This document shows, piece after piece, positions 3,326 to 31,265 of a stretch of DNA of 60,923 nt. Numbering within the stretch: the stretch's first letter is position 1; every line of letters starts with the position of its first letter. Source of the DNA: Oscillospiraceae bacterium (GTDB lineage Bacteria > Bacillota > Clostridia > Oscillospirales > Acutalibacteraceae); assembly GCA_015066385.1 (NCBI GenBank), contig SVOJ01000018.1, positions 1-60,923 of the forward strand, in the 5' to 3' direction. The position numbers and the translations under genes were made by a program. Under the pieces are notes generated by a model. The model ran no database searches. It was not told where the DNA came from and saw only the letters and a list, made by a program, of their open reading frames with translations.

Positions 3326-4714
3326 ATGAAACGTTTAAGAAAAACACTCTGCATTGTTCTCAGCATTCTGATGGTGCTTCCCTTTGCACTTCTTTGTGCA
3401 AGTGCCACAAGCCTGACAGACTACGTTCTTGTTTCCCCCTACGAAAACGTCGATTGGGAAACATGGGGACTTTACAAGGGCAACCTGCACACCCATTCCA
3501 CCTACAGCGACGGCTCCGTCACCTACCCCGAAACCATTATTGAACACTACAACCAGGGCTATGATTTCCTTGCTATGGCAGACCACGGTGTCACAGGCAG
3601 AGCATGGAATGAACGTCAGCCTCTGATTCCGCTGTATCTGTATCAGTACATCATCGGCTACAAGCAGGAATACCTGACCGACGAACAGTTTTTCGGCGTA
3701 ACAAGCGGCTCTTATCCGCTGTATGACGGCACTGTCCGCGGTGAAGGCATGACCTGTGTGACCGGTGCAAATGAACTGAACTACATCAACATCACCAAGA
3801 GCCACGTTAACGGCTATTTCCTGCCGGACGGTGTCGGCAACGGCTTTGAAGGCGGTGAAAACGGCCATGAAATCGCAGTTGCATTCGTCGAAAAGAACGG
3901 CGGTCTTTCGCACATCAATCATCCCGGTGACTGGATCGGCTACGAATCCGTTGACGAAGCATCCAACCCCGAACATGTCCGCTATTTCAGTGAGATCATC
4001 CTGAAATACGATTCCTGCCTCGGCTTTGAAATTTTCAACCTCCATAACAACACCGAACCGTATAACCGCATTCTGTGGGACAACATGCTCATGTACACCC
4101 TGCCCTACGGCAGAACCTTCTGGGGCTTTGCCAACAATGACTCCCACAATTTCAGCGAAATTGACTCTTCGTTCATGGTCTTCGCCATGGAGGAAAACAA
4201 TGTTGACAACATCAAGCAGGCTATGATTGACGGCAATTTCTTTTCTGTCGCACGTCACCTTGGCACAAATGATATCATCGGCCCCGAAACGGAAGTGGAT
4301 GCCTGCGACACGGATCTCATGTATCCTACCTTCACTTCCGTGACGACTGAAAACCACACCATCAATGTGACGGTTGCAGACTGCAACTACATTCAGTGGA
4401 TCGCCAACGGCAAAATCATCGCTTCGCAGGATGTGACCGCCGACAGCGGTGTGATCACACTTGATCTTGACACCATTGCAGGTGCGGAAGAATTTATGTA
4501 TGTCCGTGCTGAAATTATCGGCGATGGCGGCATAACCTGCACACAGCCCATCGTGATCGACAACGGTGAAGAAAAGCCGGCTTACGAAAGTGAAACCACG
4601 CTTGACAGCATCCTTGCAGGCATCGCATTCAAACTCAAGAGCACACGCATTTATGTTATTCTTGCAGAACTCATCGGCTTGGTCGTTGATGAAATCAAGG
4701 ATCTGATAAAATAA
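3326..4714 (+). CDS. Secreted PHP-domain phosphoesterase-like protein
   Basis: A 462-residue protein with a signal peptide (residues 1-~30, MKRLRKTL then a hydrophobic core). A PHP-type metal site begins at about residue 53 (GNLHTHSTYSDGS), continues with ADHGVTG (~83) and HINHPGDW (~195), and ends with NNDSHN (~272). Such sites bind two or three metals and hydrolyse phosphoesters. A beta-rich C-terminal region (~330-420) follows, then an amphipathic hydrophobic tail. AAAAGGAG precedes the ATG at 3326. Like the phosphoesterase upstream it probably acts outside the cell; the substrate is unknown. Confidence 0.85.
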   Translation: MKRLRKTLCIVLSILMVLPFALLCASATSLTDYVLVSPYENVDWETWGLYKGNLHTHSTYSDGSVTYPETIIEHYNQGYDFLAMADHGVTGRAWNERQPLIPLYLYQYIIGYKQEYLTDEQFFGVTSGSYPLYDGTVRGEGMTCVTGANELNYINITKSHVNGYFLPDGVGNGFEGGENGHEIAVAFVEKNGGLSHINHPGDWIGYESVDEASNPEHVRYFSEIILKYDSCLGFEIFNLHNNTEPYNRILWDNMLMYTLPYGRTFWGFANNDSHNFSEIDSSFMVFAMEENNVDNIKQAMIDGNFFSVARHLGTNDIIGPETEVDACDTDLMYPTFTSVTTENHTINVTVADCNYIQWIANGKIIASQDVTADSGVITLDLDTIAGAEEFMYVRAEIIGDGGITCTQPIVIDNGEEKPAYESETTLDSILAGIAFKLKSTRIYVILAELIGLVVDEIKDLIK

Positions 4715-4756
4715 AAAACATTATTGCAGAAAAAGGAGACACTTTTAAAATATCGG

Positions 4757-4785
4757 TTGACTTTTGCAAAAAGCAATATTAAAAT
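4757..4785 (+). promoter_or_regulatory. Promoter of the leader-peptide/acetyltransferase operon
   Basis: TTGACT (4757-4762), 17-nt spacer, TAAAAT (4780-4785), about 30 nt before the leader ORF. Confidence 0.7.
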
Positions 4786-4814
4786 AATAAAAAAATGAAA
4801 GGCAGGTGGACAAA

Positions 4815-4871
4815 ATGACAATGGTTATGCTCCGCAGAAACCGAAGTGCTGTTTTGTCCGTTTGCAAGTGA
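4815..4871 (+). CDS. Putative regulatory leader peptide (18 aa)
   Basis: A short ORF encoding MTMVMLRRNRSAVLSVCK with a purine-rich AGGTGG before its ATG. It lies between a promoter and a terminator hairpin, and its codons for RNRSA form one arm of an antiterminator. That is the layout of translation-coupled attenuators. The Met-rich start and the RRNR (+X+) run recall ribosome-stalling leaders of antibiotic-resistance genes such as the ermD leader, but that is analogy only. It is too short for homology calling. Confidence 0.55.
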   Translation: MTMVMLRRNRSAVLSVCK

Positions 4872-4931
4872 TTTTTTATCATTCTGTAAAAGCAAAGGCA
4901 TCTTCGGTTTTCGGGGATGCCTTTATTTTTT
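4838..4931 (+). promoter_or_regulatory. Terminator/antiterminator attenuator before the acetyltransferase operon
   Basis: Terminator: AAAGGCATC (4894-4902) pairs with GATGCCTTT (4916-4924), followed by a T-run; CTGTAAAA (4884-4891) and TTTTACAG (4928-4935) can extend the stem. Antiterminator: 4838-4849 (AAACCGAAGTGC) pairs with 4898-4910 with one bulged T at 4901, which takes up the terminator's 5' arm. A third pairing, 4808-4815 with 4852-4859, links the leader start to its end. The first two structures exclude each other. Confidence 0.65.
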
Positions 4932-4949
4932 ACAGAAAGAGGTTATTGA

Positions 4950-5780
4950 ATGGAAGCAATCAAAAGCAATATCACATTTAAAAAACTGACAAAAGAAAAT
5001 TGCACGAATTACAAAAATGTGCGCAAAATCTTTGCAAAGTATAAGAAACAGACCTTATGCAACCACGGCGAAGCCCCCGGTAGCAAGAAGATGTTTTACA
5101 ATCTGTTTGACAGCATCATTGCAAGCCTGCCGAAAGATAAAACAAAATATTTCATTGTCATGCATGCAGACAAAGAACTGCTCGGCTTTGCCCTGATTGA
5201 AACCGCTGACCGTGATGTGGTTGATATTCCCTTTTCTTACGGTTCGGTACATGATTTTTATATTTCCCCTAAGCACAGGCACAAAGGCTTCGGCAGAATT
5301 CTGAACGAATACATTGAAAAAATTTTCAAAGAGAACGGCACAAATACGGTTTTGCTGTATCCCGACCCCGTCAGCGGCATTGACTTCTGGAGAGCCATGG
5401 GATATTGCAACACGGGAATTCATCAGGGATGGGGACACTTTTTGGTTTACAAAAAACACCTGACCGAAAACGAACACACCGCAGAAATTGACAAGGCAAT
5501 TGAACAGCTTGTGACCCCGACCGACACCATCGGCATCAACCCTTACAACAAACAGCAGATGAAAGAGGTTTTCAAAGTATGGAAGGAATATTGCAAACAA
5601 GCAAACCGAAAGCCGCACAAAAACGATGTCCGCAAAATGGCTTTCAGTGCAAGAAAAAACCGTAACGTGCATTTTTCTGCCTTGTATTACAAAGGGAATG
5701 TAATCGGTTTTACCTACAAAGCTGAGAATGAAATAAGTCATATATTGCCCGAATACGAAAAACAGGAGTTTCATCTATGA
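4950..5780 (+). CDS. GNAT family acetyltransferase with extra C-terminal domain
   Basis: A 276-residue protein. Residues ~8-165 form a GNAT domain with the acetyl-CoA loop RHKGFG in the context SPKHRHKGFGRILNEY (~110). Residues ~175-276 hold a second region whose strand GNVIGFTYKAENEISH resembles the middle of a GNAT fold, but the protein stops before a second acetyl-CoA loop, so the second domain looks cut short. It is the first gene after the attenuator, with AAAGAGG before the ATG. Its stop overlaps the methyltransferase start (ATGA). The leader suggests an inducible protective function, but the substrate is unknown. Confidence 0.82.
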   Translation: MEAIKSNITFKKLTKENCTNYKNVRKIFAKYKKQTLCNHGEAPGSKKMFYNLFDSIIASLPKDKTKYFIVMHADKELLGFALIETADRDVVDIPFSYGSVHDFYISPKHRHKGFGRILNEYIEKIFKENGTNTVLLYPDPVSGIDFWRAMGYCNTGIHQGWGHFLVYKKHLTENEHTAEIDKAIEQLVTPTDTIGINPYNKQQMKEVFKVWKEYCKQANRKPHKNDVRKMAFSARKNRNVHFSALYYKGNVIGFTYKAENEISHILPEYEKQEFHL

Positions 5781-6517
5781 GCAAGCAGAATATTTTTAAC
5801 AACGAAACATTTTTTGAAGGCTATAAGACCCTGCGTGCAGGCGAAACAAACTATAATGACTTGCTTGAACAGCCTGCCATGGCAAAATTGTTGACAGATT
5901 TAACTGATAAAACAGTGCTTGACCTCGGGTGCGGTTACGGCCATAACTGCATTGATTTTGTGCATCGCGGTGCAAAGCGTGTTGTCGGAATTGACATTTC
6001 CGAAAAGATGCTTGCGGTTGCAAAAAGTGAATCTGCCCATGAAAAAATTGAATACCTGAACATGAGCATGACCGACATTGCCGCATTGGGTGAAACCTTT
6101 GATTTTATTTACAGCTCACTTGCTTTTCATTATGTCAAGGATTTTGATTCCTTTGCAAAAACGATGTTCGCTGTTCTGCACAACGGCGGACAGCTGCTGT
6201 TTTCACAGGAGCATCCCATCATCACTGCCACCGTTGACGGAAACGGCCACTTCAACAAAGACGAAAACGGCAACCGTGTTTCCTACACGTTTTCAGATTA
6301 CAACAGACCCGGGGAACGAAAAGTGCATTGGTATGTGGACGGGGTTATCAAGTATCACAGAACGTTCAGTGATGTGATCAATGCACTGGCCAAAGCCGGC
6401 TTTGTTATTGAAGAAATCTGCGAGCCGACCCCCGAAGAATGGGCAATTGAAAAACTGCCGACGATCGTCAAGGAATACATAAAGCCTAATTTTCTGATTG
6501 TGAAAGCCCGCAAATAA
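5777..6517 (+). CDS. Class I SAM-dependent methyltransferase
   Basis: A 246-residue protein. Motif I VLDLGCGYGHN is at ~45-55, the acidic end of strand 2 is VVGIDIS (~70), and the SLAFHYVKD region (~115) follows the motif II strand. The C-terminal part carries TFSDVINALAKAGFVIEE, typical of small-molecule methyltransferases of the Methyltransf_11/UbiE type. It is translationally coupled to the preceding GNAT by a 4-nt overlap. The substrate is not known. Confidence 0.88.
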   Translation: MSKQNIFNNETFFEGYKTLRAGETNYNDLLEQPAMAKLLTDLTDKTVLDLGCGYGHNCIDFVHRGAKRVVGIDISEKMLAVAKSESAHEKIEYLNMSMTDIAALGETFDFIYSSLAFHYVKDFDSFAKTMFAVLHNGGQLLFSQEHPIITATVDGNGHFNKDENGNRVSYTFSDYNRPGERKVHWYVDGVIKYHRTFSDVINALAKAGFVIEEICEPTPEEWAIEKLPTIVKEYIKPNFLIVKARK

Positions 6518-6571
6518 AACAACCGCGTGTTGAAAAAATAGATTAACAATCCAAAACAAGGAGAGCTTGTT

Positions 6572-7123
6572 ATGATTTTTAAAGAGAAAACAATTCAACT
6601 GAAAAACGGCAGAACGGCCGTTCTGAAAACACCCGAAATTGCAGATGCACAGCAATTGCTTTCCTGCATCCGCACCACTTCGGGCGAAACGGATTTTCTG
6701 TCGCGTTCCGCCGAAGACTGGGACAAAACCACGGTAGAAAGCGAAGAAAAATGGATCCGCAACAACCGCGAATCCGAGAATGATTATGTGATCACCTGCT
6801 TTGTTGACGGTGTTGCGGTCGGCAGTTGCGAAATCAGCTTTTTCGGCAAGGGCAAATCGGCGCACCGTGCGGGACTCGGCATTTCGATTATCAAAGAATA
6901 CTGGAATCTCGGCATCGGCTCTGCAATGTTTCGTGAATTGATGAAACTTGCTCAAGAACATGAGGGGACCGAAATCGTTGAACTCGAATTCGTAGAGGGC
7001 AACGACAGAGCACAGGCACTGTACGAAAAATTCGGCTTCAAAATCATGGCAACAAAACCGAATGCATACAAACTCAAAGACGGAACATACCAGAACGTGT
7101 GCTATATGCAGAAATATTTATAA
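6572..7123 (+). CDS. GNAT family N-acetyltransferase
   Basis: A 183-residue protein of the RimJ/RimL-like type. It has an N-terminal strand, a long helix region, SAHRAGLGISIIKEYWNLGIGSAM (~108-132, with the acetyl-CoA loop NLGIGS), and the C-terminal VEGNDRAQALYEKFGFK signature (~152). AAGGAGAG lies before the ATG. It sits 54 nt after the methyltransferase in the same direction and is probably co-transcribed. Confidence 0.9.
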   Translation: MIFKEKTIQLKNGRTAVLKTPEIADAQQLLSCIRTTSGETDFLSRSAEDWDKTTVESEEKWIRNNRESENDYVITCFVDGVAVGSCEISFFGKGKSAHRAGLGISIIKEYWNLGIGSAMFRELMKLAQEHEGTEIVELEFVEGNDRAQALYEKFGFKIMATKPNAYKLKDGTYQNVCYMQKYL

Positions 7124-7137
7124 CAAGGCACAGAACA

Positions 7138-8076
7138 ATGAATGAAGTAGTATTTCAATTAACCGACATAAAGCAGCTCAAAACCGTTGCAATGAAAAAT
7201 GAAATCCACGAACTCGGTGCAGGTGATCTTGCAATTTTCAATGAACATCTGCGGCTTTGTCAGCCGAAGCACAAACGCTTGTTTTTCAAAGGGGTCTCCC
7301 AAGCGGATTGGCAAAAATGGTACACCGACGGCATCCGTTATTTCGTGTTGTTCGCAGACAAAAAACCCGTTGCACGGTGCTGTATTGAACCGTTGAATAA
7401 CACGCAGTGGGAAGCGGCAGACGTGAAAGTTTGTGCAGAAGCACGAGGCAATGGTTTTGCAAAGCAAGTGGTCTGCCATGTTTCCAATATCATCTTAAAC
7501 AGCGGCAAAACCGCCACCTGCCGCACATTGCCGACCAACACCGCTATGCTCAGAGTCATTGACGCTTTGGGCTTTAGTGCCGTGCAAAGACAACTGCTGC
7601 CTGTACACGGCAGACTCATGACAGAAGATGAATTCCCCGCATATGCGCAGTGGTCTGTGAAAGGTTATGCCGATTATCTTTTGTTCAAAGCCGAAAAGAG
7701 CAGAAAAAAGGCACTTGCCGCTTCCAAAGAAGAATTCAATGATGTGTACCCCGACGGCACACAGACAAAAGACACATATCTTTATGTCGTGCAAAATGAA
7801 GACGATGAGGACATCGGAGTGATCGCATATCAGAAAAGCCCCTACAGCGAAAACTGTGCGTTTATCACGGAGCTTGTGATTCATCCGGACCACCGACACA
7901 AAGGCTATGCACAAAGCGCACTGCAATATGCACAAGCGGATGCAAAAGAGAAAGGCTTCGGCACCATGGCACTCAATGTGTTCAAAAACAGTGCAGCTTT
8001 TCCGGTCTATGTTTGCGAAGGCTTCCGATTGATTGAAGATTACCCCGACAGTGCCATTTTAGAAAAAGACTTATAA
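7138..8076 (+). CDS. GNAT protein with two acetyltransferase-like domains
   Basis: A 312-residue protein. The N-terminal half (~15-160) is a degenerate GNAT domain (KVCAEARGNGFAKQVV, ~98, then NTAMLRVIDALGF). The C-terminal half (~200-312) is a better conserved one, with IHPDHRHKGYAQSALQYA as acetyl-CoA loop and KNSAAFPVYVCEGF near the end. The start at 7138 is chosen for the AAGGC before it; 7099 would overlap the previous gene and 7192 lacks a ribosome site. Likely one catalytic and one structural domain. Confidence 0.8.
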   Translation: MNEVVFQLTDIKQLKTVAMKNEIHELGAGDLAIFNEHLRLCQPKHKRLFFKGVSQADWQKWYTDGIRYFVLFADKKPVARCCIEPLNNTQWEAADVKVCAEARGNGFAKQVVCHVSNIILNSGKTATCRTLPTNTAMLRVIDALGFSAVQRQLLPVHGRLMTEDEFPAYAQWSVKGYADYLLFKAEKSRKKALAASKEEFNDVYPDGTQTKDTYLYVVQNEDDEDIGVIAYQKSPYSENCAFITELVIHPDHRHKGYAQSALQYAQADAKEKGFGTMALNVFKNSAAFPVYVCEGFRLIEDYPDSAILEKDL

Positions 8077-8089
8077 AGAGGTGAAAGGA

Positions 8090-8641
8090 ATGAAACTCGT
8101 TCTTCTTTTCGGCAGCTTTGCCGTCGGCAAAATGACCGTCGGGCAGGAGCTTGCAAAAATAACCGATCTGACTCTTTTTCACAACCACATGACCATTGAA
8201 CCGGTACTCGATGTGTTCGGATACTACCACGGACGAGCCGTGCGCAGATTGCGGGATGTTTTCTTTGAAGAATTCGCCGACACCGGTGAAGAGGGTTTAA
8301 TTTTCACCTTTGCATGGGCATTCGACCAACAAAGTGATTGGGATTATGCAAAACATGTAACGGACATTTTTGCAAACAAGGGTGCAGATGTTTATTATGT
8401 GGAGCTTGTCGCCTCGCAGGACGTACGCCTTGTTCGCAACAAAAGCGAAAACAGACTTTTGCACAAGCCGAGCAAACACGACCTTGCATTTGCAGAACAG
8501 GATCTGCTGGATGCAGACAAAAAGTACCGTCTTGAAAGCTATGACGGAGAGATTCCGTTTGAGAATTACATAAAAATCGACAACACCGAGCTTGCCCCCG
8601 ATGTTGTCGCAAAAATGATCAAAGAAAGATTCAAATTGTAA
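8090..8641 (+). CDS. P-loop kinase (shikimate-kinase-like / AAA_33)
   Basis: A 183-residue protein. The Walker A loop GSFAVGKMTVGQ (~8-19) has the GKxT core. It is followed by HNHMTIEPV, a strand TFAWAFDQQSDWD (~70), and VYYVELVASQDVRLVRN with a lid-like Arg region (~100-110). The fold is that of small-molecule or nucleotide kinases; the substrate is unknown. ATG 8090 is chosen over GTG 8081 because GAGGTG lies 7 nt before it. Confidence 0.78.
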   Translation: MKLVLLFGSFAVGKMTVGQELAKITDLTLFHNHMTIEPVLDVFGYYHGRAVRRLRDVFFEEFADTGEEGLIFTFAWAFDQQSDWDYAKHVTDIFANKGADVYYVELVASQDVRLVRNKSENRLLHKPSKHDLAFAEQDLLDADKKYRLESYDGEIPFENYIKIDNTELAPDVVAKMIKERFKL

Positions 8642-8651
8642 GGTAACAAAT

Positions 8652-9497
8652 ATGGAAAACGAAAGAAAAGCACTTGTGCACTCATTTCTCGGAAAAACCG
8701 TACACATCAAAATCGACCGTCCGATCGGCTATGTGCATCAGAAAAACGGCTATTCCCTCACCTATCCGATCAATTACGGTTATATCCCCGCTGTGCTCGG
8801 CGGTGACGGTGAAGAACTCGATGTGTATCTGCTCGGCATTTCTGTCCCCGTCTGCGAATACACCGCCGAGGTCATCGGCATTGCGCATCGTCACAATGAT
8901 ATCGAAGACAAACTCCTTGCCGCACCGCACGGAATGGATTTTACAAAAGAAGAAGTTGAACAGGCCGTGCATTTTCAGGAGCAGTATTACGATACCGAAA
9001 TCGAACTGTTTGTACCGCCGTGTGAAATCATCCGTCAATACAACAAAATATATGCCGATCCGCCCGAACGGGTGCGTGTTTCGTGCCGTGCTTTTGTGAT
9101 TGATAAAGACAAACTTTTGCTTTCGCACGAAGTGAACAAAAATGTTTACATGAGCCCCGGCGGCGGTCTGGAAGACGGCGAAACACTCAGCGAATGCTGC
9201 AAAAGAGAAGTGCAGGAAGAAACGGGTTACATCGTGCGTGTACTTCATAAATTCCTTGTTGTGAATGAATACAGCTTTGAAACGCTGTATATAAGTCACT
9301 ATTTTCTTTGCGAAATCATCGGCAAAGGCGAAGCACATCTGACCGAAACCGAAATCGACCACGGCATCACCCCTGCATGGCTTTCTTTTGACAAAGCCCT
9401 GTCCGTGTTCGGAACCTATGAAAGCAAACAACTTGACCACAGAAGCCTGTATCTGCGGGAATTCACAACCATTCAAAAATATCTTGAACAAAAATAA
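8652..9497 (+). CDS. Inorganic pyrophosphatase-like domain fused to Nudix hydrolase
   Basis: A 281-residue two-domain protein. Residues ~8-125 resemble soluble family I pyrophosphatase: YPINYGYIPAVLGGDGEELD (~37) matches the YPxNYGYIP...DGDPLD signature with D-to-E at the second acidic position, and HNDIEDKLLAAP (~78) matches the DxxxDxK segment. Residues ~138-275 are Nudix, with the box GGGLEDGETLSECCK followed by REVQEETGY (~172-195), fitting GX5EX7REUXEEXGU. A Nudix enzyme acting on a nucleoside triphosphate releases PPi, which the first domain could hydrolyse; that coupling is inference. Confidence 0.85.
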   Translation: MENERKALVHSFLGKTVHIKIDRPIGYVHQKNGYSLTYPINYGYIPAVLGGDGEELDVYLLGISVPVCEYTAEVIGIAHRHNDIEDKLLAAPHGMDFTKEEVEQAVHFQEQYYDTEIELFVPPCEIIRQYNKIYADPPERVRVSCRAFVIDKDKLLLSHEVNKNVYMSPGGGLEDGETLSECCKREVQEETGYIVRVLHKFLVVNEYSFETLYISHYFLCEIIGKGEAHLTETEIDHGITPAWLSFDKALSVFGTYESKQLDHRSLYLREFTTIQKYLEQK

Positions 9498-9524
9498 ACG
9501 GAGGACCGAAATCCCCCGAAAAAC

Positions 9525-9830
9525 TTATTGCATAAGCCAAGTATAATCCTGACGGCAATCAAAAATATAATCCACACTGACAACATCGTCTGTTATGTGG
9601 TATATAGCAAGATATCTGTTGTCGATCAGCATTTTTCGGTAATAATTTCTGTCAAGTGCATCTATGTTGACATACGGATTTCTGCGAGGCATTTCAGACA
9701 AAGTACGCAAAGAATCCACAATTGTTTTCTTTGTCTTTTTGGCACTTGCCATGCTTACCTTTTTCAAAAAATCGACATGTTTTCCGAGATGCCTTTTTGC
9801 TCTGTCTGAAATAACAACTTTATACTTCAT
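9525..9830 (-). CDS. RelE/ParE-family toxin
   Basis: A 101-residue basic protein with the RelE/ParE pattern: KYKVVISDRAKRHLGKHVDFL at the start, a helix pair, then YYRKMLIDNRYLAIYHITDD and VDYIFDCRQDY at the end. Such toxins cleave mRNA on the ribosome (RelE) or poison gyrase (ParE); which applies here cannot be decided. It lies 6 nt downstream of its antitoxin and opposite to the surrounding operon. Confidence 0.85.
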   Translation of the reverse strand: MKYKVVISDRAKRHLGKHVDFLKKVSMASAKKTKKTIVDSLRTLSEMPRRNPYVNIDALDRNYYRKMLIDNRYLAIYHITDDVVSVDYIFDCRQDYTWLMQ

Positions 9831-9836
9831 AACTGT

Positions 9837-10100
9837 TTACTCCCCGATGATTTCATCCAGATAATCCGACAGTTCATCGAGCGTAACATCGGCAATGCCT
9901 GCCATTCTTTCGGATTCCACAGTCATCAGTTCTTCACGCAGTTTCAGCATTTTTTCACGGCGTTCAAAGGATTCAATGTCCATCACAACCAGATCGCCTT
10001 CGCCGTTTTTGGTCAGATACACAGGCTCACCCGTGCGTTTGCACAGTTCGGCAATTTCGTTGTAGTTATTTCTGATGGCGGCAGAGGGACGGATATTCAT
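9837..10100 (-). CDS. Phd/YefM-family antitoxin
   Basis: An 87-residue protein. The start (MNIRPSAAIRNNYNEI) and TGEPVYLTKNGEGDLVVMDIESFE (~24-47) are the DNA-binding Phd/YefM fold, and the acidic C-terminus (DELSDYLDEIIGE) is the expected toxin-wrapping tail. ATG 10100 follows AAGGAG at 9 nt and is preferred over an upstream TTG. It comes first in the toxin-antitoxin operon and probably autorepresses it. Confidence 0.88.
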   Translation of the reverse strand: MNIRPSAAIRNNYNEIAELCKRTGEPVYLTKNGEGDLVVMDIESFERREKMLKLREELMTVESERMAGIADVTLDELSDYLDEIIGE

Positions 10101-10135
10101 AAAACACAACTCCTTAATAGCAATATTATATCTTT

Positions 10136-10164
10136 ATTATACACAAATTATATCACAATGTCAA
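10136..10164 (-). promoter_or_regulatory. Promoter of the toxin-antitoxin operon
   Basis: On the minus strand TTGACA (10159-10164), 17-nt spacer, TATAAT (10136-10141): both boxes are consensus. It sits directly before the antitoxin. Confidence 0.85.
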
Positions 10165-10182
10165 CATAAAAAGGATATACAA

Positions 10183-10674
10183 ATGATTACATTTTCATTT
10201 CTCAACAAAAATGAGTTTCATCAAATCGCACCTGTCATTTTTTCAATTCTTGCGGACAATATGGGAAAAATTGCCCCGACGGGCAACACAAGGCAGGAAG
10301 ATTACCATTGCTGGTACAGCAGTGTCTGCGAGGGATTGAAAAAAGAGGAACGGCAGATGATTATGATTCAGGACGATGAAAAATTGGTCGGCTTTTTTCA
10401 GTATTTCACAAACACCGATACATTCAGAATGGAAGAAATTCAGTTTCACCCCGATTATCAGGGCAAAGGGTTATTCAGACCCTTGTGCGGCTTTGTCAAG
10501 CAGAAAATAAGGCAGGATCTTATTTTTGTGGATGCGTATGCAAACATACACAACGAAAAATCCATCGGCATTCTCACTAAAATGGGACTTCAGAACATCG
10601 GACTCAACAAAAACGGACGCAGTTTCCACTTCAAAGGCAACTTTGCAGATCTGAAAAAATGGTACGAAACATGA
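10183..10674 (+). CDS. GNAT family N-acetyltransferase
   Basis: A 163-residue protein. EIQFHPDYQGKGLFRPLCGFV (~85-105) contains the acetyl-CoA loop QGKGLF, and the C-terminal half has NIHNEKSIGILTKMGLQNIG, the usual Asn-helix-Gly pattern. The ATG at 10183 follows AAAGGAT; the upstream in-frame region overlaps the antitoxin promoter and is not coding. Its stop overlaps the start of the HExxH gene (ATGA). Confidence 0.87.
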   Translation: MITFSFLNKNEFHQIAPVIFSILADNMGKIAPTGNTRQEDYHCWYSSVCEGLKKEERQMIMIQDDEKLVGFFQYFTNTDTFRMEEIQFHPDYQGKGLFRPLCGFVKQKIRQDLIFVDAYANIHNEKSIGILTKMGLQNIGLNKNGRSFHFKGNFADLKKWYET

Positions 10675-11501
10675 AAATCATAAACACTTGTGAAGATATC
10701 AAAACCCTTTTTGCAGACGGCTTTCACTTGCAAACATGGCGGCAATATGCAGGTGCAATTTCAAAAGCCCTGCCCGAAAAATGCGAAAACGATGCAAAAG
10801 AATATGACTTTGAGAAGGATGTTCTGCCCGTTCTCAACAATGCGTTGCATACCGACAAAATCGATCTTGTAAGCAGAAGTTTTCAATCGGTAACAGACAG
10901 TTTGCAAGAAAATCTTAAAAAACTGTTCGACACAGAGCCGGATATCAACATCATTCTGTATTTGGGGCTTTGCAACGGTGCAGGCTGGGCAACTACGCTG
11001 GACGGCAAGGACACCGTTCTTCTCGGAATCGAGAAAATCATTGAGCTTGGCTGGGGCGACGAAACCAATATGCACGCCCTGATTCTGCACGAAATCGGTC
11101 ATCTGTGGCACAAGCACAACGGAAATCTGCATATTCCGGAATTTACCAAACGCAGAAAAGGAATCGCACAGCTTTACTGCGAGGGTGTTGCCATGGTTTG
11201 CGAGCATATTCTGTGCGGTGATAATGATTTTTATCATCAGGAAAAAAACGGCTGGCTCGATTGGTGTTATAAAAACGAGAACCAAATAAAAATAGAATAT
11301 CTCCGCCGTCTTGATAAAAAAGAAAGTGTTCAGGATTTCTTCGGAGATTGGTGTTCGTATAACGGACATTCGGATGTGGGCTATTTCCTCGGCTGCAGAT
11401 TTATCGAACATCTTATGAAAAAGCATTCATTAAAAGAAATTGCAAACATGTCCTATGGAAAATTAAACAAAGAATACAAAATTTTTGCAAAACAGGGGTG
11501 A
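10671..11501 (+). CDS. Predicted zinc-dependent protein with HExxH motif
   Basis: A 276-residue protein without signal peptide. ALILHEIGHLWHKHNG (~138) contains the HExxH zinc motif, and CEGVAMVCEHIL (~174) offers a downstream Glu as third ligand, the gluzincin layout seen in predicted Zn-proteases of the DUF2268 type. The family name is uncertain. It acts in the cytoplasm. It is translationally coupled to the preceding GNAT (4-nt overlap) and 3 nt ahead of the TIM-barrel gene. Confidence 0.7.
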   Translation: MKIINTCEDIKTLFADGFHLQTWRQYAGAISKALPEKCENDAKEYDFEKDVLPVLNNALHTDKIDLVSRSFQSVTDSLQENLKKLFDTEPDINIILYLGLCNGAGWATTLDGKDTVLLGIEKIIELGWGDETNMHALILHEIGHLWHKHNGNLHIPEFTKRRKGIAQLYCEGVAMVCEHILCGDNDFYHQEKNGWLDWCYKNENQIKIEYLRRLDKKESVQDFFGDWCSYNGHSDVGYFLGCRFIEHLMKKHSLKEIANMSYGKLNKEYKIFAKQG

Positions 11502-11504
11502 ACC

Positions 11505-12299
11505 ATGAATCTACATCACTTCGGCATGCCCACATTGATAGAAACAAACACACTCCCCAAATGTGCAAAGCTGTGTGCAGAATCAGGTCTTGATTTCGTT
11601 GAACTGAACATGAATCTGCCTGCATTTCAGCTTGATAAAATGGATGTCAACTATTTCAAAAGCATTGCGAAAAAGTACGGCATTTACTACACAATTCATC
11701 TTGACGAAAACCTGAATGTCTGTGATTTCAATCCTCATGTTGCAGAGGCTTACAAAAAAACTGTTGCAGAAACAATCGAAATTGCAAAACAGCTTGACAT
11801 AAAGGTTCTTAATATGCATTTGTCAAAAGGTGTGTATTTTACCTTACCTGACAGAAAAGTTTATCTTTTTTCGGAATACAAAGAGCAATATCTTGAAAGT
11901 ATTCTTGCTTTCAGAAATATGTGTGAAACCGCTGTTGGGGAAAATGATATTAAGATTTGCATTGAAAACTGTGACGGCTATACAGATTTTCAGAAAAAAG
12001 CCATTGAAATGCTTTTAGAATCAAAAGTGTTTGCGTTGACTTTCGATGTGGGACACAATCACGGCATCGGCGGAACAGATGAAGAATTTCTTATGCAACA
12101 CAAAAATCGCCTGCACCATATGCATCTGCACGATGCCAAAGACAGAAAAAATCACCTTGCACTCGGCACAGGTGAATTGCACATCAAAAAATATATCAAT
12201 CTTGCAAAAGAGCAAAACTGCAGAATCGTTTTAGAAACAAAAACCATTGACGGACTGAAACAGTCGGTAGCTTGGCTTGCAAATTCAACAGAGGATTAA
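11505..12299 (+). CDS. Sugar phosphate isomerase/epimerase-like TIM-barrel protein
   Basis: A 264-residue protein of the AP-endonuclease-2/xylose-isomerase-like superfamily. Metal ligands expected in this fold are visible in order: IHLDEN (~63), LNMHLSKG (~103), CIENCDG (~148), TFDVGHNHG (~178), HMHLHDAKD (~205) and VLETK (~244). It probably isomerises a sugar or polyol derivative; the substrate is unknown. GGGGTG precedes the ATG and the gene sits in the tightly packed island operon. Confidence 0.85.
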   Translation: MNLHHFGMPTLIETNTLPKCAKLCAESGLDFVELNMNLPAFQLDKMDVNYFKSIAKKYGIYYTIHLDENLNVCDFNPHVAEAYKKTVAETIEIAKQLDIKVLNMHLSKGVYFTLPDRKVYLFSEYKEQYLESILAFRNMCETAVGENDIKICIENCDGYTDFQKKAIEMLLESKVFALTFDVGHNHGIGGTDEEFLMQHKNRLHHMHLHDAKDRKNHLALGTGELHIKKYINLAKEQNCRIVLETKTIDGLKQSVAWLANSTED

Positions 12300-12306
12300 A
12301 CAAAAA

Positions 12307-12762
12307 ATGAAAAACTATGTTATTGAACCCCTCAAACCCGAGGAATACCACAAGTGTTCAAACATCTGGAACATGCAAACACAACCCCTTAGCCTTCAAT
12401 GGAAAGAAGAAATTGAATCAGGTAACCGACTTGTGTTTATTTATAAAATCAACGGTGAATTTATCGCCGAGGGGGCATTGGTTTTAGACACAGGCGATCC
12501 CGACTATACCATTCGCGGAAAACGGGTGTATGTTTCAAGGATGATCGTCAAAAAGGAATACCGCAATCGGGGCATCGGCAGTGAGATTCTTGCTTTCTTA
12601 ATAAACAAAGCACAAGAAATGGGTTTCAACGAAATGACAATCGGTGTAGACAAAAATAACACAACCGCATTGCACCTGTACAGAAAATTCGGCTTCACCG
12701 AAGTGCTGTTTGACGGCACGGATGAAAACGGAGAATATTATAAACTGATGAAGAGGATATAA
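12307..12762 (+). CDS. GNAT family N-acetyltransferase
   Basis: A 151-residue protein. VYVSRMIVKKEYRNRGIGSEILAF (~77-100) holds the acetyl-CoA loop RNRGIG, and GVDKNNTTALHLYRKFGFTEV (~118) is the typical C-terminal signature. ATG 12307 is chosen because the GNAT fold begins there and AGAGGA lies upstream. It is 2 nt before the next methyltransferase. Confidence 0.9.
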   Translation: MKNYVIEPLKPEEYHKCSNIWNMQTQPLSLQWKEEIESGNRLVFIYKINGEFIAEGALVLDTGDPDYTIRGKRVYVSRMIVKKEYRNRGIGSEILAFLINKAQEMGFNEMTIGVDKNNTTALHLYRKFGFTEVLFDGTDENGEYYKLMKRI

Positions 12763-12764
12763 TT

Positions 12765-13523
12765 ATGCTTGACTACACAAAAATCAATTCTTCAACATGG
12801 GATTTGTGGGCGGAAGACGGCTGTGCATGGACATTGCCCATAAGCCACGAAGAATACGAAAAAACAACCGTTGATAATTTTATAGTTTATCTCACACCTT
12901 GCATTGCTGTTCCGCACGAATGGTTCGGTGACTTAAAAGGAAAAAAGGTGTTAGGGCTTGCAAGCGGCGGCGGTCAGCAAATGCCCGTGCTTGCAAAACT
13001 CGGCGCAGAATGCACTGTGTTTGATTATTCCGAGAAACAACTCGAAGCAGAAAAAACGGTGTCCGAAAGAGAAGGCTACAACATTGAAATTATCAAGGGG
13101 GATATGTCAAAGACGCTCCCCTTTGAGGATGAAAGTTTTGACATTATTTTTCATCCCGTTTCAAATGTCTATGTGGAAGATGTTTATCATGTCTGGAATG
13201 AATGTTACCGTGTGCTGAAAAAAGGCGGCAGATTGCTTGCGGGACTTGATAACGGTATAGACTTCCTGTTTGAAGAAAATGACCCTTTGAAAGTGGTCAA
13301 TCCCCTGCCGTTCAATCCGCTGAAAATGCCGAAAGAAAGACGCGAGACAATGATTGCAAACGGCGACGGCATACAGTTCAGTCATACACTTGAAGAACAG
13401 ATCGGCGGTCAACTCAAAGCCGGATTTACACTTAAAGCATTATATGAAGACCGCGACCGCGAAGGCGGCAATGAAATCGGCAAATTTTATCCGCAATACA
13501 TAGCAACCTTGTCTGTAAAGTGA
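12765..13523 (+). CDS. Class I SAM-dependent methyltransferase
   Basis: A 252-residue protein. Motif I VLGLASGGGQQMPVLAKLGA (~62) is followed by the strand 2 acidic end CTVFDYSEKQL (~85), motif II LPFEDESFDIIFHP (~118) and motif III RVLKKGGRLLAGL (~150). The first ~50 residues include a Trp-rich SSTWDLWAEDGCAW segment common in methyltransferase relatives of this size. AAGAGGAT precedes the ATG. The substrate is unknown. Confidence 0.88.
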   Translation: MLDYTKINSSTWDLWAEDGCAWTLPISHEEYEKTTVDNFIVYLTPCIAVPHEWFGDLKGKKVLGLASGGGQQMPVLAKLGAECTVFDYSEKQLEAEKTVSEREGYNIEIIKGDMSKTLPFEDESFDIIFHPVSNVYVEDVYHVWNECYRVLKKGGRLLAGLDNGIDFLFEENDPLKVVNPLPFNPLKMPKERRETMIANGDGIQFSHTLEEQIGGQLKAGFTLKALYEDRDREGGNEIGKFYPQYIATLSVK

Positions 13524-16824: not shown

Positions 16825-17588
16825 CAAATCAAGAAATATTACAAATAGCACTACAACAATCGGCTTTTGACTGCAATTGCAATGCTGAGGATTTTCTTGC
16901 GATCGAAAACAAGATTGTTTTATCAAAGAAAAATGAAAAAGCAAGGGTGTATATGCCCTTGCCGCTTGAGTGTGATTTGGTGTCATACGGAAATAATATT
17001 GTCGCTCAGGTCAGTCCAAGGATGAAAGAAACTGTTGAATGGTACATAGGAAAATTCCCTGTTGAGCATTGCTTTGAATCGCCCAATGTTATTGCTCTCA
17101 ACGAGAAGTTGGCACAGTTTGAATATAAAGTTTGCTTTATGGCAGAATACTTTCTGCCCGATATCAACGAACTTAAAGAATTATCCTGCGATTATGAAAT
17201 AAGAGTTTTACACCCCGAAGAATTTGAGCAGTATTACACCGCTGCGTGGGGCAACGCTTTGTGCAAAAGTCGAAAACATCTTGACAAACTTGCCGTCGGT
17301 GCATTTGATGACGGTAAACTCATAGGACTTGCAGGATGTTCTGCGGATTGCGAAACAATGTATCAGATCGGTGTCGATGTGTTACCTGAATACAGAAAAA
17401 AAGGTGTTGCATCCGCGATCACAAGCAGGATTGCTCTTGAAATACTGAAACGCGGAAAAGTACCGTTTTACTGTGCAGCATGGTCGAATATTAAATCTGT
17501 TCGCAATGCAATAAGAAGCGGTTTCAGACCTGCGTGGGTCGAACTGACAGCAAGAAACAGCGAATTCGTTGATAAAATGAACAAATAA
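16821..17588 (+). CDS. GNAT family N-acetyltransferase with N-terminal extension
   Basis: A 255-residue protein. Residues ~1-120 form an extension resembling the N-terminal half of two-domain acetyltransferases. Residues ~125-250 are GNAT with IGVDVLPEYRKKGVASAITSRIA (~177) as acetyl-CoA loop and AWSNIKSVRNAIRSGFRPAW near the end. It is translationally coupled to the preceding methyltransferase. The substrate is unknown. Confidence 0.85.
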   Translation: MTNQEILQIALQQSAFDCNCNAEDFLAIENKIVLSKKNEKARVYMPLPLECDLVSYGNNIVAQVSPRMKETVEWYIGKFPVEHCFESPNVIALNEKLAQFEYKVCFMAEYFLPDINELKELSCDYEIRVLHPEEFEQYYTAAWGNALCKSRKHLDKLAVGAFDDGKLIGLAGCSADCETMYQIGVDVLPEYRKKGVASAITSRIALEILKRGKVPFYCAAWSNIKSVRNAIRSGFRPAWVELTARNSEFVDKMNK

Positions 17589-18089: not shown

Positions 18090-18535
18090 GTAAGTTTGAA
18101 TTTATGAACGACTTCAATTTTTTGTCTGACGGTGAAATCACATTGAAGATATTGCAGAAATATAACGGTGATGATGAATTGTTGCCATTCTATTACTACG
18201 AAATATTTATTGATGATACACCTGTCGGAAAAATAAGTATTCGTATCGGCAGTAATTATCATTCATATTACAATGGCAATATCGGTTATGAAATTGACAA
18301 GGGATATCGAGGCAATCATTATTCATACAAAGCCTGCAAGCTTGTATTTCATGTTGCAAAAGCTCACGGAATGAATGAACTGATAATTACTTGCGATGAA
18401 AGCAATATTGCTTCCTACAAAACAATTGAAAAACTCGGTGCAGAACTTATTGAAACAGTAAAACCACCCGAGGATTATTTTGCTTACCGTGAGGATATGG
18501 AGAAACAAAAAATTTACAAACTTCATATCAAATAA
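18086..18535 (+). CDS. GNAT family N-acetyltransferase
   Basis: A 149-residue protein. NIGYEIDKGYRGNHYSYKACKLVFHVA (~70-96) carries an acetyl-CoA loop variant (RGNHYS) and ITCDESNIASYKTIEKLGAEL (~106) is the C-terminal signature. It is the last gene of the tightly coupled series; a promoter for the AraC-GNAT gene follows. Confidence 0.87.
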   Translation: MSKFEFMNDFNFLSDGEITLKILQKYNGDDELLPFYYYEIFIDDTPVGKISIRIGSNYHSYYNGNIGYEIDKGYRGNHYSYKACKLVFHVAKAHGMNELIITCDESNIASYKTIEKLGAELIETVKPPEDYFAYREDMEKQKIYKLHIK

Positions 18536-30762: not shown

Positions 30763-30837
30763 TGGTGACCCGGACGAGAATCGAACTCGTGTTACCGCCG
30801 TGAAAGGGCGGTGTCTTAACCGCTTGACCACCGGGCC
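30763..30837 (-). tRNA. tRNA-Glu (anticodon UUC), copy 2
   Basis: Read on the minus strand: acceptor GGCCCGG with CCGGGTC (one G-U), anticodon stem CCGCC/GGCGG with loop CTTTCAC giving UUC, GTTCGATTC T-arm, encoded CCA. Identical to copy 1. Confidence 0.95.
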
Positions 30838-30875
30838 GTTTATGAAGGCAGCTCGCTTACTGCTGCTGCCTTATT

Positions 30876-30952
30876 TGGTAGCGGCAGTGGGACTTGAACC
30901 TACGACACCACGGGTATGAACCGTGTGCTCTAGCCAACTGAGCTATGCCGCC
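30876..30952 (-). tRNA. tRNA-Met (anticodon CAU), copy 2
   Basis: Read on the minus strand: GGCGGCA start, anticodon stem CACGG/CCGTG with loop TTCATAC, T-arm GTTCAAGTC, encoded CCA. The acceptor is fully paired at position 1, so it is elongator rather than initiator. An Ile2 (lysidine) tRNA is the less likely alternative. Confidence 0.88.
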
Positions 30953-30984
30953 ATTTGCGTGTTGCGCTTTTCGCAACGAAAGTA

Positions 30985-31013
30985 ATTATACACAACAAAC
31001 ACACTTTTGTCAA
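30985..31013 (-). promoter_or_regulatory. Promoter of tRNA unit 2
   Basis: On the minus strand TTGACA (31008-31013), 17-nt spacer, TATAAT (30985-30990). A GTTGCG/CGCAAC hairpin lies just downstream. Confidence 0.85.
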
Positions 31014-31038
31014 TACCCAATTCTATATTTTTTATTTT

Positions 31039-31071
31039 TTAAAAAAAAAGACACCCGCTATTGCAGATGTC
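31039..31071 (-). terminator. Terminator of tRNA unit 1
   Basis: GACACCCGC (31050-31058) pairs with GCAGATGTC (31063-31071) with two G-U pairs; nine As on the plus strand give the U-run. Confidence 0.82.
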
Positions 31072-31076
31072 CTTTG

Positions 31077-31151
31077 TGGTGACCCGGACGAGAATCGAAC
31101 TCGTGTTACCGCCGTGAAAGGGCGGTGTCTTAACCGCTTGACCACCGGGCC
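31077..31151 (-). tRNA. tRNA-Glu (anticodon UUC), copy 1
   Basis: Identical in sequence to the copy at 30763-30837: same arms, UUC anticodon and encoded CCA. Confidence 0.95.
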
Positions 31152-31188
31152 GTTTATGAAGGCAGCTGCTTACTGCTGCTGCCTTATT

Positions 31189-31265
31189 TGGTAGCGGCAG
31201 TGGGACTTGAACCTACGACACCACGGGTATGAACCGTGTGCTCTAGCCAACTGAGCTATGCCGCC
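31189..31265 (-). tRNA. tRNA-Met (anticodon CAU), copy 1
   Basis: Identical to the copy at 30876-30952. It comes first in its transcription unit, followed by tRNA-Glu after a spacer hairpin (AAGGCAGC/GCTGCCTT-type arms). Confidence 0.88.

Follow-up and report, generated by a model that had tools for sequence, protein, structure and literature searches.

A family of candidate leader-peptide attenuators, predicted to read ribosome position, precedes acetyltransferase-rich operons in gut Clostridia

Ribosome position on a short leader ORF decides between termination and read-through in several described systems, given here and below as described in excerpts of the cited papers. At rli80-hflXr of Listeria, a short ORF lies over an anti-antiterminator followed by an antiterminator and a terminator, and antibiotic-stalled ribosomes give read-through (PMC6310831). 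The BmrB leader of Bacillus subtilis bmrCD, induced by ribosome-targeting drugs, acts on an ABC transporter by translation-dependent transcription attenuation and has a 53-codon ORF with the terminator in its coding region (PMC4191407). In actinobacteria, the whiB7 uORF attenuator builds its antiterminator from uORF and terminator sequences that overlap; this one attenuator stands before a trans-acting activator, and the whiB7 regulon includes several GNATs (PMC10727445). At Escherichia coli topAI, a ribosome stalled at the start codon of the toiL uORF (by tetracycline and, by inference, retapamulin) gives the ON state through SD occlusion and Rho (PMC12121999). Related attenuators also stand ahead of unrelated genes as IS-associated 'mobile attenuators', which were attributed to transposon terminators (PMC2965389).

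Here we analysed a 60,923-nt stretch of DNA (the window) from an Oscillospiraceae bacterium (contig SVOJ01000018.1 of GCA_015066385.1). By its sequence, the leader in front of the window's GNAT/methyltransferase operon is one of an attenuator family that recurs ahead of similar operons in related bacteria. By analogy, it would share the working principle of rli80-hflXr, BmrB and the whiB7 uORF, with ribosome position picking terminator or antiterminator. It has the order of parts seen at rli80-hflXr, but where that system pairs an RLR macrolide motif with hflXr, here there are many loci, GNAT-rich operons and no shared arrest motif. Leaders of this family have ORFs of 15–30 codons with the terminator beyond the stop, unlike BmrB. 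A start-held ribosome is modelled as the ON state, as at toiL, with an intrinsic terminator in place of SD occlusion and Rho. Each operon has its own cis copy, in contrast to the single whiB7 attenuator; the window's first gene is a GNAT rather than a WhiB7-type activator, and the 17 Pfam families of 27 first genes include no WhiB family. Compared with the 'mobile attenuators', the loci have a coding leader and a covarying antiterminator. The leader family was not found described in the open-access PMC literature among the matches listed, nor were four leader peptide strings found in open-access PMC papers. The features of the window leader are as follows.

4757–4785, + strand: promoter-like TTGACT-17-TAAAAT, sigma-70-like (consensus scan, 10 of 12 positions match)
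4804–4809, + strand: leader Shine-Dalgarno (SD) AGGTGG, strong, read from the sequence and conserved in relatives
4815–4871, + strand: leader ORF, 18 codons, MTMVMLRRNRSAVLSVCK plus stop, frame kept in relatives
4802–4817/4850–4865, + strand: P1, predicted anti-antiterminator hairpin, 16 pairs (folding)
4839–4850, partner 4897–4909, + strand: antiterminator arm B, within the leader codons (aligned columns)
4894–4931, + strand: intrinsic terminator and T-run; hairpin 4894–4924, 14 pairs; core stem 4896–4906/4912–4922
4879–4891/4928–4940, + strand: P3, outer stem around the terminator (inverted repeat)

The initial annotation of this DNA had named a promoter, the 18-codon ORF, the terminator with its T-run and an antiterminator inside the leader codons. 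All were recovered, the antiterminator about one base from the limits given there (12 pairs and one bulge, placed from aligned columns, over an inverted repeat at 4831–4846/4902–4917); P1 and P3 were absent from it. By itself, the promoter-like site is little proof, because the region 3600–8000 holds 9 such sites against 5.8 ± 2.7 in shuffles. Folding places the leader SD and start codon inside P1, paired with the end of the ORF, and P3 includes the 5′ part of the SD of the GNAT gene. The leader region folded at −63.2 kcal/mol versus −41.7 ± 3.85 kcal/mol for shuffled sequence (z = −5.58; 0 of 200 shuffles equal). The window thus has an SD-led short ORF in a conserved frame and a terminator between leader and gene, as in ribosome-mediated attenuators generally; that the antiterminator overlaps the ORF and excludes the terminator is seen in pairing and covariation.

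To place this leader among relatives, we scanned a collection with one genome per species for exact matches to a pattern made of both P1 arms. The scan gave 82 stretches, of which 70 read as members: 66 loci and four on the other strand (L038, L046, L051 and L052). L095 and L111 were kept although their ORFs extend beyond the usual stop; the remaining 12 stretches (L031, L044, L056, L058, L061, L068, L073, L079, L087, L094, L098 and L108) were chance or unrelated matches. Members were nearly all from metagenome-assembled genomes of Clostridia-type gut bacteria, two labelled Bacilli and many named after ruminant gut samples. The window's own genome (G000) carries three more copies (C21:324 kb, C28:19.8 kb and C21:159.5 kb). 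When 26 genomes of the genus were searched with a covariance model built on the window's type, 15 had matches at E ≤ 0.01, as many as five in one genome, with part of the weak matches read.

A model of the commonest type was taken further out. It matched in 65 of 394 genomes of the order at E ≤ 1e-3, and from the 30 loci read, 19 of the 394 genomes, the window's included, have members, three of which are without one part (L169, L172 and L173). Another 11 loci (L174 and L176–L185) were rejected as terminator-like matches without a leader. Matches outside the 30 loci read scored at most 34.5 bits, except for the own copies and G244:C58 (59.7 bits). At E ≤ 1e-7, the same model matched four genomes beyond the own one among 391 of the class, and the own genome only among 398 of the phylum.

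Searches of plasmids with two queries and of phages with one (type i) gave no match, and a pattern that included the SD gave zero matches in viral sequences. Hits on 13 viral contigs (L113–L125) were set aside: all were a single unrelated stretch of 57 nt in which both arms recur and the ATG has no SD. Against Rfam 15 at gathering score, the window matched tRNAs alone and ten further loci nothing but one tRNA; at E ≤ 1, positions 4700–5000 gave only matches below half of the family cut-off. No T-box was matched in the window at gathering score or in 4700–5000 at E ≤ 1. In the own genome, the copy at C21:324121–324259 (− strand; L002/L022) has leader and terminator with a convergent ORF ahead, and no ORF of at least 60 aa follows on the same strand within 1.5 kb; it is possibly an orphan attenuator left after gene loss.

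Frame conservation was not built into the search, though related leaders share length. In 105 distinct loci accepted by a loose P1 grammar, we measured how far the 3′ arm ends from the ATG, and this spacing was a multiple of three in 97 (two of them opposite-strand matches, L065 and L149), with frame kept across seven lengths (39, 42, 45, 48, 54, 60 and 78 nt). Six of the eight exceptions were unrelated hits (two in L073, two in L094, one in L098 and one in L068); the other two, L139 and L155, keep the parts with a shifted 3′ frame. In 93 of the 105 loci the ORF closes in frame with a stop codon whose first base is 6, 9 or 12 nt past the arm, and in the window the first base of the stop lies 9 nt from the TTTTGTCC arm.

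The program found a terminator in 85 of the 86 leaders with enough sequence (exception L173), choosing a hairpin 90 nt off in L076. A terminator of −11 kcal/mol or lower with a T-run was present in 84 of 86 leaders and in 1 of 258 shuffled stretches; L172 and L173 have no clear one. In 61 covariance-model matches (two weak opposite-strand ones, L052 and L065, left in), 97.5% of P1 and terminator cells were paired versus 86.1% in shuffled alignments, a comparison that leans toward the modelled structure because the alignment was fitted to it. Of the 22 pairs, 13 had changes on both sides: every one of the ten in the modelled terminator, and three of the twelve in P1. The twelve modelled P1 pairs had 98.1% of cells paired in these matches; in the first set, P1 invariance is by construction, its arms being part of the search pattern. 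In the own genome, L198 departs from the common P1 arms, GGACAAAATG/CGTTTTGTCC, and reads GGATAAAATG/CATTTTATCC instead.

The antiterminator covaries as well; covariation of the two stems in relatives was the check proposed in the early reading of the locus. Its arms differ wholesale by leader type (LIKS codons with TGATTTTATCAG, RNRS codons with CTTCGG, LLYEA codons with CGGCTTCGTATAA). Over 79 distinct pairs, the cognate duplex averaged −16.2 kcal/mol versus −10.8 ± 0.39 kcal/mol for permuted partners, with 0 of 10,000 permutations as low, and the same 0 of 10,000 held inside type i (36 pairs) and inside type ii (33), in permutations that, like the shuffles below, carry no correction for relatedness. 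Neither type iii (6) nor type iv (4) varies enough for the within-type test. Column by column, six type i pairs had changed on both sides (0 of 500 shuffles as many), and one type ii pair had, in five sequences (364 of 500 shuffles reach the pair count, none the cell count). For P3, cognate duplexes averaged −11.8 versus −9.1 ± 0.29 kcal/mol (0 of 10,000 permutations; within type, 0 for type i and 9 of 10,000 for type ii). The SD falls in the paired part of P3 at 58 of 64 loci but also in 80% of permuted pairs, so for P3 only the energy test is informative.

These pairings bear on a reading of the region as a ligand-binding riboswitch with a loop–loop pseudoknot, like guanidine-IV, and an incidental ORF. 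The loops of P1 and of the terminator are complementary to each other, and the guanidine-IV variant Gd4v, which has two hairpins and a pseudoknot, is gut-enriched and partly GNAT-associated, likewise lying upstream of GNATs in gut bacteria (PMC9788692, in excerpt). A riboswitch, however, would not need the frame, SD, start and stop that are kept here, and the loop arms are wholly unlike between types yet pair within each locus. Rfam gave no riboswitch match, the presence of guanidine-IV/Gd4v models in release 15 being unconfirmed. We consider a riboswitch of this kind very improbable. The parts and their pairing instead point to a leader-peptide transcription attenuator that reads ribosome position on an ORF of very few codons preceded by a strong SD, which we regard as likely.

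To ask which ribosome positions would free arm B, we folded the transcript up to the terminator loop (3′ arm absent) with the ribosome footprint masked codon by codon, in 33 leaders of 16 codons and 35 of 18 codons, near relatives included, and scored at least 5 expected antiterminator pairs as formation. With the P site at codon 1, all 33 and all 35 leaders are predicted to form the antiterminator. The share among 16-codon leaders is 70% with the P site at codon 3, halves to 33% at the next codon and drops to 3% at codon 5; 18-codon leaders still stand at 91% at codon 5 and fall to 3% one codon later. Masking further into the ORF, through codon 14, leaves an antiterminator in 0–3%, and masking at the last codon restores it in 42% of 16-codon and 91% of 18-codon leaders. 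The mean-pair profile along the codons was unchanged across three footprint sizes. From this profile, a start-held ribosome would free the antiterminator, a mid-ORF ribosome would cover it and a stop-held one may free it.

In the proposed mechanism, P1 by default would keep arm B in its loop, the terminator would form and transcription would end near 4930. A ribosome held within the first three to five codons would cover the P1 5′ arm and leave B free; B, which mimics the terminator 3′ arm, would then capture the terminator 5′ arm, and the polymerase would read on into the operon of GNAT and methyltransferase genes. With a ribosome in mid-ORF, B would be covered and termination favoured. Without a ribosome and without the terminator 3′ arm, the modelled equilibrium holds the antiterminator in 33% of 16-codon and 46% of 18-codon leaders, and in the window transcript the antiterminator beats P1 outright. 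Because this equilibrium is mixed and in the window favours the antiterminator, the OFF default depends on P1 folding first, which is likely from its stability (P1 of the window reaches −24.4 kcal/mol in isolation).

The last-codon profile also fits a different sensor, in which a ribosome held at termination covers the P1 3′ arm and frees B, so that slow release is the ON signal. The stop lies at the short, regular distance from the arm described above, and 18-codon leaders respond in the model as this would require. Against it, just 42% of the 16-codon leaders do, the final residues vary (D, N, V, A, I, K, R and others) and a shared arrest motif is not seen among the peptides; we think this unlikely. 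For the attenuator freed early in the ORF, the signal would be initiation or early-elongation arrest by ribosome-targeting compounds. That such a compound is the inducer, as the initial annotation supposed, is plausible, and the switch would act in the cell.

The peptides themselves are little conserved. The 76 distinct sequences include types such as MTNMILIKSNAVLSAD, MTMTIILRNRSAVLSVCD, MTMYYLYYSNSHIKSDVVLSAI and MTKTVNLLYEAVLSAR. Their most widely shared residues are LS, spelled by the P1 arm TTTTGTCC. Near pairs of leaders differ by 196 non-synonymous versus 93 synonymous codon changes (raw counts from non-independent pairs), so strong constraint on the peptide is not apparent. Thr at codon 2 might match drugs whose action depends on the context of the nascent chain; it is present in 66 of the 76, but we give it no weight because the search pattern itself required ATGACA.

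The Arg-rich stretch of the window leader had been read at first as an ermD-type stall site, and an ErmD/HflXr-type macrolide sensor would have a drug-bound ribosome arrest on RNR (+X+) and so expose the antiterminator. R-x-R does occur in the window leader and some relatives, and an RLR-bearing 14-aa leader controls Listeria hflXr by attenuation (PMC6310831, in excerpt). Yet R-x-R is found in only 14 of the 76 distinct peptides and lacking in 62, and even [RK]-x-[RK] is limited to 21. Where the window has its Arg codons, other leaders carry LIKS, LLYE or MTWR; the Arg codons may serve the RNA instead, because they are located in the base-paired antiterminator arm. In the masking model, moreover, a ribosome placed on RNR in the window leader, with codon 9 in the P site, leaves the antiterminator with 0 expected pairs and P1 with about 8, which would mean termination. 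The arrest-motif part of that first reading found no support, and we judge a macrolide sensor of this type distinctly improbable.

An amino-acid starvation attenuator of the his/trp type, with codon-specific stalling as the signal, has an identical formal logic of leader, antiterminator and terminator. However, no run of regulatory codons is common to the 76 distinct peptides, residues 3–7 vary widely among them, and the first genes are mostly GNATs rather than biosynthetic genes; this account is scarcely credible here.

The operon-like genes behind the window leader are:

4950–5780, + strand: first gene, GNAT acetyltransferase (PF00583, E = 2.8e-10)
5777–6517, + strand: second gene, SAM-dependent methyltransferase, 4-nt overlap with the first (PF08241, E = 4.6e-21)
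6572–7123, + strand: GNAT (Pfam), operon-like
7141–8076, + strand: GNAT-domain protein (Pfam), operon-like
8081–8641, + strand: ORF without a Pfam family, operon-like
8652–9497, + strand: NUDIX/pyrophosphatase (Pfam), operon-like

Strand and spacing suggest that the genes at 6572–9497 are co-transcribed with the first two. From 77 member hits we took 42 complete first ORFs (>120 aa, starting at most 140 nt from the arm), which after removal of close duplicates left 27 proteins in 12 BLASTP clusters, not all independent. The largest cluster holds 15 of the 27, the window GNAT among them. GNATs (PF00583) make up 20 of the 27, and the further Pfam families matched include HAD, GrpB, histidine phosphatase, lactonase, a TIM barrel and a kinase domain; the conserved leaders stand ahead of GNAT-rich operons. 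In NCBIfam, all matches of the window GNAT to named GNATs were far below cut-off. A reading of these genes as defence systems was discarded: PADLOC matched only methyltransferase-containing or candidate models (six matches in five of ten proteins), none of which we took as evidence. The GNATs and methyltransferases would presumably detoxify ribosome-targeting compounds, and the masking model suggests that the family probably switches its operons on when ribosomes get stuck.

For comparison, the own genome has 26 PF00583 matches in total, seven of them in the window contig between 5.1 and 18.4 kb. From 4950 to 13523, nearly all genes lie on the + strand, in an array that encodes GNATs, methyltransferases, NUDIX, TIM-barrel and other small enzymes; GNAT was matched again at 17211–17435 and 18152–18439. 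Gene families of a similar kind occur behind other leaders in other orders. Two small adjacent ORFs on the − strand (9525–9830 and 9837–10109) lie inside the array and resemble what we take to be a RelE/RelB-type pair.

Promoters and attenuator–gene modules appear to have been exchanged at the leader start. Promoters at least 94% alike over 48 nt stand before different leader types and genes (for instance those of L168 and L097, with identity 1.0, precede leaders of type ii and type iii), against a median promoter identity across leader types of 0.46. At the orthologous loci G000:C28 and G021:C29, flank and promoter are common up to GGACAAAATGACAAAG within the leader. Past this point, leader body, terminator and genes differ (2.2 kb vs 0.14 kb), and similarity returns where the next gene common to both begins, which looks histidine-phosphatase-like from its sequence. 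This one locus demonstrates exchange at the leader start, and the several promoter pairs suggest more of the same. In G021:C25 (L194), 2.3 kb of extra DNA lies between operon genes at the counterpart of window 12752/12753, holding its own leader and further genes. A broader idea, which we put forward tentatively as a doubtful possibility, is that the leader is a sequence-agnostic sensor of start-codon occupancy that doubles as a recombination joint through its near-invariant start GAAAGGCAGGTGGACAAAATGACA; gut Clostridia would thereby build combinatorial stress-inducible detoxification operons in cis, with neither a master regulator nor a dedicated recombinase. If general, leader-start exchange would be a route to put new resistance-type genes under ready-made inducible control.

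The family would represent cis-encoded translation-stress switches of uncultured gut Clostridia, and its leaders flag GNAT and methyltransferase gene sets as probably inducible by ribosome trouble. Because the arms differ between loci and must pair within each, it also provides naturally swapped variants with which the sensed ribosome positions could be tested.

Regulators and gene remnants were seen at some loci. A LytTR response regulator directly follows the leader in L198 (484–1188) and L201 (886–1596), and L043 seems by its sequence to be a similar case; in L096 (5913–7920), a GNAT comes first, then a LytTR response regulator and a GHKL kinase. At G000:C28, a short GNAT-like frame beginning MISLRLTT lies between terminator and GrpB gene (L027, about 1652–1684), and L097 and L100 have a full-length GNAT starting MISLRLTT at that same place. 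Elsewhere in the window, four tRNA genes at 30766–31265 (− strand) form two pairs, both genes of one kind scoring 66 bits and both of the other 61.4 bits, and probably arose by tandem duplication.
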